From: Vicinamibacterales bacterium
Lineage (GTDB): Bacteria; Acidobacteriota; Vicinamibacteria; Vicinamibacterales; UBA2999
Assembly (NCBI GenBank): GCA_030680175.1
Contig: JAUXWO010000070.1
Coordinates: forward strand, 1-64,000
Direction of reading: 5' to 3'
Length of the DNA: 64,000 nt
Shown: positions 21,756 through 25,589 of the stretch, in pieces
How positions within the stretch are numbered: the stretch's first letter is position 1
How the letters are laid out: every line of letters starts with the position of its first letter
The notes under the pieces: generated by a model
The model's input: the letters and a program-made list of their open reading frames with translations, nothing else
Database searches by the model: none
What the model was told of the DNA's origin: nothing
Translations under genes and position numbers: made by a program

Positions 21756-23966
21756 CTAGAAGCTGATCCGCACCTCGCCGATCACCTGGCGCTTCAGGAT
21801 GTCGCCGAAGATGTGCGACTGGATGTTCTCGTCCATCAGGTTGATCGCCTTGATGGTCGTCACGATCCGGCCGCCGGCGAAGCGCATGCCGAGCGCGCCG
21901 TTGACCTGCGTGTAGGACCGCGTCGGGCCGTGGAAGCGGGCGTCCAGCACGTCCTGCCACCGTGCTTCGCCGACGTAGGACACCACGGCGTTGCCGAGGA
22001 AGCGGCCCTCGGTGAAGTTGAAGCCCACGTTGAAGCGGTTCTGCGGCGGGAGGTTGACCTCCGAGAGGTCGAAGTCCGGCTCGGGCTCGAACTGATACGA
22101 GTAGTTGACGAACACGTTGAGCGCCTCGCTCACCGCCCCGTCCACGCCGAGTTCGACGCCCTTGTTCTTCACCTCGCCGAGGTTCAGGTAGGTGAACTGG
22201 GACGGCAGGCCGCCGGTGTTGCAGTTCGGGCCGAGCGGCGGGTTGCACGCGGGCGGCAGGACCTCGAGCACGCCGAGCGCCGTGGCCGCCGGCAGCGGCG
22301 CGAGGGCGTTGGTCCACCCCGGGGGCGGCGCGAACGCGCGGTAGCGGCCGTTCTGCGTGAAGAAGATCTCGTCGGACCCCTTCGTGTAGTAGTAGGCCGC
22401 CGTGACCGTCGCGCGCTTGGCGATCACGCCGGTGTAGGCGATCTCGTACGACTCGGTCGACTCTTCCTTCAGCGCCTCGTTGCCGACCGCGTTGACCGGG
22501 AAGTTGAAGACCCGGCCGGCGAACAGCGGGTTGATGAGCCCCAGGTTCAGCTGGTTGATGATCGTCGTCTCGAGGTAGTTGTTGATGAGCGACGGCGCGC
22601 GGAACGCCTTGTTGAACGAGAAGCGCACCGAGTGGTCGGCGGCCGGCTTGAGGATGAGCGCCGTGCGGGGCGAGAAGACCGCGCTGTCGAGCACGCTGAA
22701 CTTGTCGACGCGCGCGCCGACGTTCAGCCGCACATGGTCGTTCAGGAAGAACTCGTCCTGCACGTAGGCGCCGTACTCGCTGCGGTTGTCGCCGCGGGGC
22801 GCAATCGACAGGTCGAACTTGTTGTAGCGGAAGTTGCCGCCGTAGGTGAGCACCTGGCGGGAGCCGAGCGTGTTGACGTTGCCGAACTCGACGTCGACCG
22901 TCTTCGTGTCGAACACGAACGGAATGGGCTGGCCCGTCGGGCCGACCGCCAGCAACGCCGAGGCGTCGCCGCTCAGGATGTTGGTGAACACGCTGAAGCG
23001 CATGGCGCCGCGCGTGTACTTCATGCTGCCGTACCCGAGCCCGATCCGCTCCATGTCGAACGGCCCGATCCCGGTGTGGATGATGCCGTCGGTGCCGGCG
23101 TAGCCGCCGGAGAACGTCAGGCGGTAGCGGCCGTCCGGGTCGTCATAGTCGAGGCGGCCATCGACCTTCGGCTGCCGCGTGCCCTGATTCTGGAACGCGG
23201 GATACTGCGTGCCGGTGCCGTTCGGGATCGTCCCGGCCGGCCGGATGAACGCGTCCGACGAGTAGCCGCCGGCCGAGATCTTGTACGCCCACCGATCGTT
23301 CACCGCCCGTGCGTGCGTGCCGTTCACCCCGAACAGCGCCCCCGCATCGTCGCCCCGGTTGCCGACCTTGCGTCCGAACATCCCGGCGCTGATGGTGAGG
23401 CTGTCGCCGTGCAGTTCGCGCGGCGTCTTCGAGATGAAGTTGATGACACCGTTCAGGGCGTTGGCGCCCCACACCGCCGACGCCGGCCCGCGGATGACCT
23501 CGATCTGGCGCAGTTCGTTCGGGTTGACGGGGAGCAGGTCCCACGCCACGAAACCGAAGAAATCCAGGTAGAGGCTGCGGCCGTCGAGCAGGGCCAGCTG
23601 CGAGGTGGCGAGCGTCGACGTGGCCCCGCGCATCGTGATGTTGAAATCACGCGCCGAGATCTGCGTGATGTTCATCCCGGGGACGGACCGCAGGAGTTCG
23701 GCGTAGTTGGTGGCGGGCGAACTCGCGATGACGTCCGCCGTGACGACGCTCACCGTGGCCGGGGCGTTGACGAGCTGCTGCTCGACACGCGAGGCGGTGA
23801 CGACCACCTGCTCGGCGTAGATGGGCGGTGCTTCTTCCTCGGGCGGCGGCTGCTCCGCCGGGGGCTGGGGAGGGGGCGGCTGATCCGCGGGGAACGCGCC
23901 CGCCCACGACGGCAGCGGGGAGGCAAGCACGAGAACCAGACAGAACGCCAAGCTGCGCGCTTTCAT
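21756..23966 (-). CDS. TonB-dependent outer-membrane receptor
   Basis: A 736-aa receptor with a signal peptide (MKARSLAFCLVLVLASPLPSWAGA), a proline-rich linker, a TonB-box-like stretch (EQVVVTASRVEQQ, about 55), a plug domain (RSVPGMNITQISARDFNITMRG; ALNGVINFISKTP) and a 22-strand-type barrel ending KRQVIGEVRISF, with the C-terminal aromatic typical of outer-membrane proteins. It imports a substrate using TonB energy; the ligand is unknown and no iron-uptake or SusD gene is adjacent. AAGGAGG precedes the ATG. Confidence 0.93.
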   Translation of the reverse strand: MKARSLAFCLVLVLASPLPSWAGAFPADQPPPPQPPAEQPPPEEEAPPIYAEQVVVTASRVEQQLVNAPATVSVVTADVIASSPATNYAELLRSVPGMNITQISARDFNITMRGATSTLATSQLALLDGRSLYLDFFGFVAWDLLPVNPNELRQIEVIRGPASAVWGANALNGVINFISKTPRELHGDSLTISAGMFGRKVGNRGDDAGALFGVNGTHARAVNDRWAYKISAGGYSSDAFIRPAGTIPNGTGTQYPAFQNQGTRQPKVDGRLDYDDPDGRYRLTFSGGYAGTDGIIHTGIGPFDMERIGLGYGSMKYTRGAMRFSVFTNILSGDASALLAVGPTGQPIPFVFDTKTVDVEFGNVNTLGSRQVLTYGGNFRYNKFDLSIAPRGDNRSEYGAYVQDEFFLNDHVRLNVGARVDKFSVLDSAVFSPRTALILKPAADHSVRFSFNKAFRAPSLINNYLETTIINQLNLGLINPLFAGRVFNFPVNAVGNEALKEESTESYEIAYTGVIAKRATVTAAYYYTKGSDEIFFTQNGRYRAFAPPPGWTNALAPLPAATALGVLEVLPPACNPPLGPNCNTGGLPSQFTYLNLGEVKNKGVELGVDGAVSEALNVFVNYSYQFEPEPDFDLSEVNLPPQNRFNVGFNFTEGRFLGNAVVSYVGEARWQDVLDARFHGPTRSYTQVNGALGMRFAGGRIVTTIKAINLMDENIQSHIFGDILKRQVIGEVRISF

Positions 23967-24019
23967 GGACCCTCCTTGGGGGGTTCACCGCATACGTTGC
24001 CGCATTGTAACGCTGGAAC

Positions 24020-24129
24020 GGGGATCGGGGATCGGGGATCGGGGACCGGGGGAAGGGGGGGAGGGTGAACGGTGGACCGTGGGACAGCGGGACCGTTCAC
24101 CGTCCACCGTCCACCGTCCACCGTTCACC
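24020..24129. repeat. Heptamer arrays with a 14-bp inverted repeat after the selenoprotein gene
   Basis: Four units GGGGATC x3 and GGGGACC (24020-24047) are followed by GGTGAACGGTGGAC (24064-24077). Its exact complement GTCCACCGTTCACC lies at 24116-24129, inside five ACCGTYC units (24092-24126). The array ends eight bases before the complement of the redoxin stop codon. It can fold into a long hairpin. Confidence 0.9.
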
Positions 24130-24136
24130 ACCGCCG

Positions 24137-24619
24137 TCACGGCGCGCAGAGCGCCAGGTAGTCTGGCCGGTCGGCCGGTGACTCGTGACGGTAGGCGCGG
24201 AGGATCTCGCCCCGGTGCATCAGGAAGGCGCCCGGAAGCTGCCGGACGGCCGCAGGGGTCTGCATGCCGAATCCGTGCCCTTCCAGAATGGCGCACTGAA
24301 ACCCGCGCGCCCAGAGGGCCGGGGCCGCCAGGGTCGCCGCCGCCACCGACCCGAGCCCCACCGTGCGGTACAGGGCCCCGGTGGGATCGCTCAGCCTCGG
24401 CACGTCAGCCAGCCCCGCTTTCGCAAACCACGGATCGGCGTCCGCCTTCGTCCCCATGTGCACGAACGCCAACGGCGTCCCCGTCGCGCGGATGGCCGGC
24501 CGAGCCTTCGCGACATCGGCCAGCGCCTCGCGACAGAACGTTCAACCGAAGTGGCGCAGGAAGACGACGAGCGTCGGCCGGTCGGCGGTCAGGTCGACGA
24601 GGGGGGTCGGTGGCGGCAT
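24137..24619 (-). CDS. Probable selenocysteine-containing redoxin (SelL/PRXL2-like), UxxC active site
   Basis: One 160-residue frame is interrupted only by an in-frame TGA at codon 26 (24544-24542), where the sequence reads VVFLRHFG-U-TFC-REALADV. This is the redox-active position of the peroxiredoxin-like (AhpC/TSA-2, PRXL2/SelL) family, which normally has CxxC. Both sides are in the same frame and protein-like: a thioredoxin-fold start before the TGA, and FVHMGTKADADPWFAKAG and LPGAFLMHRG after it. A hairpin suited to a bacterial SECIS follows (24508-24533). The start at 24619 has GAGG five bases upstream and lies seven bases after the transaldolase stop. Read through, it should be a cytoplasmic thiol/selenol oxidoreductase. 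A standard caller would split or truncate it. Confidence 0.8.
24508..24544 (-). promoter_or_regulatory. Candidate bacterial SECIS element
   Basis: Reading the minus strand from the UGA (24544-24542), an 8-nt spacer is followed by stem TCGCGA-GGC, loop GCTG, then GCC, a 4-nt bulge GATG, and TCGCGA. The loop begins 17 nt after the UGA and has G in its first position. Both fit the general pattern described for bacterial SECIS hairpins bound by SelB. This was folded by eye and its stability is not computed. Confidence 0.6.
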
Positions 24620-24626
24620 CGGGTCC

Positions 24627-25589
24627 TCACGCGCGGGTCGCGGCGGCCTGCGCCCACTGCTCCAGCTTCCGCGCATCCTGATAGAAGCGGCGGATGCCGT
24701 CGGCCAGTTTGTCCACGGCCATGGCGTCCTGGTTGTGCTCCCAGCGGTAGGTCTTCTCGTCCAGGTGCACGCGGGGCTCCCCCGCCGCCTTCGCACCGGC
24801 CAGCGTCAGCCGCGGCTCGAGCGTGCCGGCCGCCTGATCGAGTTCCTGAAGCAGCTCCGGGCTGATCGTGAGCAGGTCGCAGCCGGCGAGGTGCGTGATC
24901 TGCTCGAGGCGGCGGAAGCTGGCGCCCATCACCTGCGTCTGGTAGCCGTGCTTCTTGTAGTAGTTGTAGATCCGCGTCACCGACTGCACGCCCGGGTCCT
25001 CGTCGACCGGCAGCTCGGCGCCGCGCTCCTTCTTGTAGTAGTCGTAGATGCGGCCGACAAACGGCGAGATCAGCGTGACGCCGGCCTCGGCGCACGCCAC
25101 GGCCTGCGCGAAGCTGAACAGGAGCGTCAGGTTGCAGTGAACCCCCTCGCGCTCGAGCTGCTCGGCGGCGCGGATGCCTTCCCAGGTGCTCCCCACCTTG
25201 ATCAGAATCCGGTCGGACTGGACACCGGCGCGCGCGTAGAGGCTGATGAGCTCCCGGGCCTTGGCCACGGTGGCCTCGGTATCGAAGCTCAGCCGTGCAT
25301 CCACTTCGGTCGAGACACGGCCGGGGATGATCTTCAGGATCTCGCAGCCGAAGCCGACGGCCAGATGATCCATGAAGGCCTCGGTGCGCGCGGCCGCATC
25401 GCCGTCCGTGCCGTCGGCGGCCTCGCGCGCCCGGTCGACGATCGCGCGGTACTGCGGCTGCTGCGCCGCCTTGAGGAGCAGTGACGGGTTCGTGGTGGCA
25501 TCCTGCGGCGTGTGCCGCGCGATGGCCTCGATGTCGCCCGTATCGGCCACAACGACGGTGTGCTGTTTCAGGGAGTCGAGCAAGGACAT
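24627..25589 (-). CDS. tal: Transaldolase (TalB type)
   Basis: A 320-aa transaldolase moving a dihydroxyacetone unit between sugar phosphates in the pentose-phosphate pathway. The start [31 protein letters not shown] (about 30), the Schiff-base Lys in [11 protein letters not shown] (about 130) and [18 protein letters not shown] all match the classical E. coli-like family in full length. It is the first gene of a pair with the selenoprotein and divergent from pgi, another sugar-phosphate enzyme. A hairpin covers its ribosome site. Confidence 0.97.

Follow-up and report, generated by a model that had tools for sequence, protein, structure and literature searches.

The minus strand of the window, the 64,000-nucleotide stretch of DNA analyzed here, contains between positions 24619 and 24140 a single frame of 160 codons whose sole interruption is a TGA at 24544–24542. 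The frame starts with an ATG at 24619–24617 and ends at a terminal TGA at 24139–24137, a stop codon that is counted in when the gene is given the range 24137–24619, as it was in a first-pass annotation made from the sequence alone. Translation of 24619–24137 gives MPPPTPLVDLTADRPTLVVFLRHFG*TFCREALADVAK...YLALCAP* (asterisks, stop codons), with one internal stop. Based on the frame, family scores, and alignment described below, we annotate 24140–24619 (minus strand) as the coding sequence of a SelL-related redoxin of 160 aa in which UGA is read as selenocysteine (Sec) at residue 26. The putative Sec codon (24542–24544, minus strand) occupies the first position of a U-T-F-C motif, a column that holds TGA or Cys in alignable relatives, and the codon for the resolving cysteine, C29, is a TGT at 24533–24535 (minus strand) that is evident from the sequence and the alignment. 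The translation thus confirms the earlier claim that the frame is broken only by a TGA at the first Cys of the redox motif.

Upstream of the redoxin gene lies an ORF on the same strand (24627–25589 in the ORF list) that we take to be transaldolase on the basis of the earlier annotation and sequence family knowledge. This ORF ends at 24627, 7 nt from the redoxin ATG, and the interval 24620–24629 comprises its stop codon and the spacer to the ATG. The ATG is preceded by TGAGGACCCG, which provides a GAGGA-type ribosome-binding site a few bases upstream; both the site and the spacing agree with the proposal that the start has a ribosome site and is coupled to transaldolase. The downstream neighbor (21756–23966, minus strand, also from the ORF list) is presumably a TonB-dependent receptor-like protein, judging from sequence family knowledge. 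Directly 3′ of the redoxin stop, an intergenic inverted repeat with GGTGAACGGTGGACGG-type units and strong folding spans 24040–24137. An Rfam scan of 23900–25000 did not match a SECIS family and returned only chance microRNA hits, which fall on this repeat. The ordinary ORF list reports the redoxin solely from 24472 (TTG start, 111 aa), which is the piece that gene callers had been expected to give.

With the UGA codon read as a Sec/Cys residue, the whole protein matches the NCBIfam model for SelL-related redox proteins, NF040769, at 130.3 bits (curated cut-off 120 bits), and a raw six-frame search that left TGA unresolved still scored above the cut-off at 121 bits. The Pfam model AhpC-TSA_2 (PF13911) is matched at 33.8 bits versus a gathering score of 27. 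The most conserved block of NF040769 is VFLRHFG-U-TFC-REAL; F20, L21, R22, H23, G25, C/U26, F28, and C29 are invariant in 33 members, and the redoxin has the CxxC/UxxC motif that follows VFLRHxG. An AlphaFold2 model built from a 33-row alignment has a pLDDT of 90.7 and a thioredoxin-like fold in which residue 26 directly precedes helix 27–45, at its N-terminus. A sequence search against solved structures gave no significant match, and the best solved structure was instead found by fold search: human PRXL2B (PDB 9usa, the C44S/C47S mutant of the CxxC pair; E value 9.1e-6, TM 0.69/0.68). The predicted structure is therefore with confidence a thioredoxin fold that is closest to human PRXL2B, and the family match together with this nearest fold bears out the assignment of the gene to the PRXL2/SelL-like thioredoxin-fold proteins.

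Across a first set of related loci, alignment puts TGA at codon 26 in 22 cases including the window (21 distinct, since one contig accounts for both L053 and L025); the codon is TGC or TGT in 86 relatives. None of the alignable relatives in this set has a stop elsewhere in the gene; in two remote loci the alignment is off by one residue, so that their TGA falls next to column 26. A further Sec form (L133) came from a phylum-wide search, and a search of viral contigs found no relatives. Because the TGA is shared by 20 other distinct loci of the first set, with no stops elsewhere and Cys otherwise, its position reflects more than chance. The first-pass annotation had held that a nonsense mutation or sequencing error was unlikely to hit that one codon and had proposed aligning homologs at this column; the alignable relatives, which have only Cys or TGA there and no random stops, support that argument.

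Phylogenetic analysis placed nine close Sec forms, including the window gene, in a group with six Cys forms of one genus, here called g2. The tree requires 2 changes of the Sec label versus 8.7 when labels are shuffled, for which the simplest account is that Sec was gained once and that genus g2 reverted once to Cys. The selA gene is kept in all g2 genomes tested. It is also present in 14 of 14 tested genomes with Sec forms and absent from two genomes with Cys forms, an association that does not reach significance by itself (Fisher p = 0.14). The transaldolase and TonB-receptor genes are conserved beside both forms: they flank the Sec forms L023, L024, L025, L028, and L033 as well as the Cys forms L027, L029, L030, and L032, and for the Cys forms L026 and L034 the transaldolase side alone was matched within the available stretch. 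The shared flanks indicate that Sec and Cys alternate at one orthologous locus. One of these Cys-form orthologs, L032 (G113:C139:17382–17840), has a CxxS motif, its second motif Cys being replaced by Ser (TCT).

The source genome (G000), a metagenome-assembled genome that its relatives place in the Acidobacteriota, is a draft of 4.98 Mb in 143 contigs with a completeness of 100. The first-pass annotation had suggested searching it for selA, selB, selC, and selD, and the complete set was found: tRNA-Sec at 64.8 bits (ARAGORN agrees, anticodon tca), selA at 517 bits, selB at 294–321 bits, and selD at 273 bits. SelD is encoded as a fusion protein of 737 aa whose N-terminal domain resembles NADH dehydrogenase (L018:1399–3612); such Ndh-SelD fusions have already been described (PMC2398784). 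Three more AhpC/TSA genes in this genome each have a single TGA at a catalytic Cys. The first (L147:1501–1866; G000:C142:28406–28771, minus strand) has the motif FTAG-U-TAEC and is a candidate Bcp/Prx-like selenoprotein, and the other two, L148 (G000:C94:44336–44731, minus strand) and L149 (G000:C94:80965–81441, minus strand), lie on one contig and are candidate Prx-like UxxC selenoproteins with the motifs SADW-U-PYC and SVDW-U-PYC. Therefore, judging from these sequences, the genome appears to use selenocysteine in genes other than the SelL-related redoxin. A search of the genome for the UGSC family gave no match, and the control for this search likewise matched nowhere.

The 75 nt from the UGA (24470–24544, minus strand) fold into a single long hairpin of 26 pairs (−42.7 kcal/mol; z −2.84 versus dinucleotide shuffles). 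Compared with synonymous re-codings matched for third-position GC, the excess folding of this segment has a mean z of −2.54 in nine Sec forms, all negative, and of −0.35 in 94 Cys forms (p = 1.5e-5 for the difference), where the 75-nt length was picked after the folds were inspected and the Sec forms, as members of a single clade, are not independent. The same synonymous test on 57 nt gave p = 0.016. The covariation signal is weak, with an RNAalifold term of +0.2, double changes occur in two stem pairs but not beyond shuffles, and the lower stem coincides with codons of conserved residues. A bSECIS-style rule places the loop 16–37 nt from the UGA with an energy under −7.5. This rule is passed by 21 of 22 Sec sites and 54 of 83 Cys sites, and because it separates the two poorly we did not rely on it. 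Folding well in excess of synonymous re-codings, found in Sec forms but not in Cys forms, is the behavior expected of a SECIS element, and the stem-loop is likely a bacterial SECIS.

Taken together, the gene architecture, the family, the Sec machinery, the alternation of Sec and Cys, the synteny, the excess RNA structure, and the predicted fold make it almost certain that the gene is intact and that Sec at codon 26 gives a 160-aa UxxC redoxin of the SelL-related (PRXL2-like) family. We infer the actual insertion of Sec, the catalytic cycle, and the substrate. A ribosome that meets the UGA at codon 26 would encounter an mRNA stem-loop beginning there, the likely SECIS, that recruits SelB with Sec-tRNA-Sec, and selenocysteine would go in at the UGA in place of termination. 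In the resulting thioredoxin-fold protein, the most likely target of the Sec26 selenolate is a disulfide or a peroxide, Cys29 would resolve the intermediate as an Se-S bond, and a thioredoxin-type donor would reduce this bond. The roles given to Sec26 (attacking selenolate) and Cys29 (resolving thiol) draw on the fold, the UxxC motif, and the known chemistry of such families.

Sec insertion generally competes with termination, and a regulated dual product, in which UGA is partly a stop and selenium supply sets the amount of full-length protein, is compatible with this explanation; it is nonetheless unlikely, as the sequence has no sign of a functional 25-aa product. A far less probable reading is that UGA specifies another residue, by decoding as Trp or general suppression. 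Any sense reading of TGA opens the frame, and the sequence of the gene alone does not distinguish among them, but we rejected this reading because the alternative at column 26 is always Cys in alignable relatives, selA/B/C/D are present, and TGA is also used as a normal stop here, for example in the redoxin and transaldolase genes. It is just as hard to credit that the gene is a decaying pseudogene in which the TGC or TGT of an ordinary CxxC redoxin mutated to TGA. The TGA is indeed one base from either codon, and a plain ORF caller finds a broken gene; however, the same TGA is common to eight diverged relatives that span several families and reach into another phylum, which counts strongly against this reading, and the frame has no second stop or frameshift. 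In addition, purifying selection keeps nonsynonymous change between Sec forms low both before and after the TGA: the closest Sec pair, L024 and L025, has a dN/dS of ∼0.10 before it and ∼0.15 after it, so the downstream part is selected as protein, and the pseudogene was rejected. Finally, although the window comes from a draft genome, an error at one base that hides a true TGC or TGT has a negligible chance of being correct and was rejected, because TGA also stands at this codon in independent assemblies and the genome has the full Sec machinery.

The machinery and the alignment column support the earlier designation of the gene as a probable new selenoprotein, in which the one point to correct is "new." Both SelL selenoproteins and bacterial redoxins of the SelL type have been described before, so this redoxin adds one more Sec-containing protein to a family that already has a name. 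A 2026 selenoprotein inventory counts 119 families; its main text names neither NF040769 nor SelL, and its broader Prx-like UxxC/UxxU entries may cover both. A literature search by the SelL-related family name or the accession NF040769 found no paper. We suggest, with rather more reserve than conviction, that published inventories of prokaryotic selenoproteins have no separate entry for the Sec UxxC clade of SelL-related redoxins, which spans Acidobacteriota and a single genome of Armatimonadota, and that this clade includes a Sec-to-Cys reversion at a fixed syntenic locus in a genus that retains the Sec machinery. The finding leaves knowledge of how selenocysteine works unchanged. Its use is that standard gene calling shortens the redoxin and strips the active site, and recognition of the Sec form puts the annotation right in this genome and in at least eight related ones. 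In addition, the Sec and Cys orthologs at the conserved locus let the contribution of selenium to one redoxin be judged in a clean natural comparison.

Among known systems, human PRXL2B (prostamide/prostaglandin F synthase) has the closest fold, with C44 and C47 forming its CxxC motif, but it is 18% identical to the redoxin and has Cys only, and its function is not transferable. The AhpC/TSA selenoprotein of pfam13911 (PMC9312934, PMC13188914) belongs to the same Pfam family, AhpC-TSA_2, and also has Sec first in the motif, which is UxxS there and UxxC here. SelL is counted among the selenoprotein families common to prokaryotes and eukaryotes (PMC2398784) and is reported from fish, invertebrates, and marine bacteria (Shchedrina et al. 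2007 via PMC2397514; also PMC3316567), in line with the earlier statement that the SelL-type family includes natural Sec forms. By its family name and these published accounts, SelL resembles the redoxin in being Prx-like with Sec at the first redox-motif position; however, it forms a diselenide between a pair of Sec residues spaced two residues apart, whereas the redoxin has one Sec and one Cys, the second motif position being TGT rather than completing the UxxU of SelL proper. The nearest system is the NF040769 family itself, whose relatives occur in Acidobacteriota, Planctomycetota, Bacteroidota, and Verrucomicrobiota: the redoxin shares with it a full-length match above the cut-off and the position of the UxxC/CxxC motif, and whereas most of the close relatives fetched have Cys, the redoxin of the window belongs to a small Sec-containing clade.
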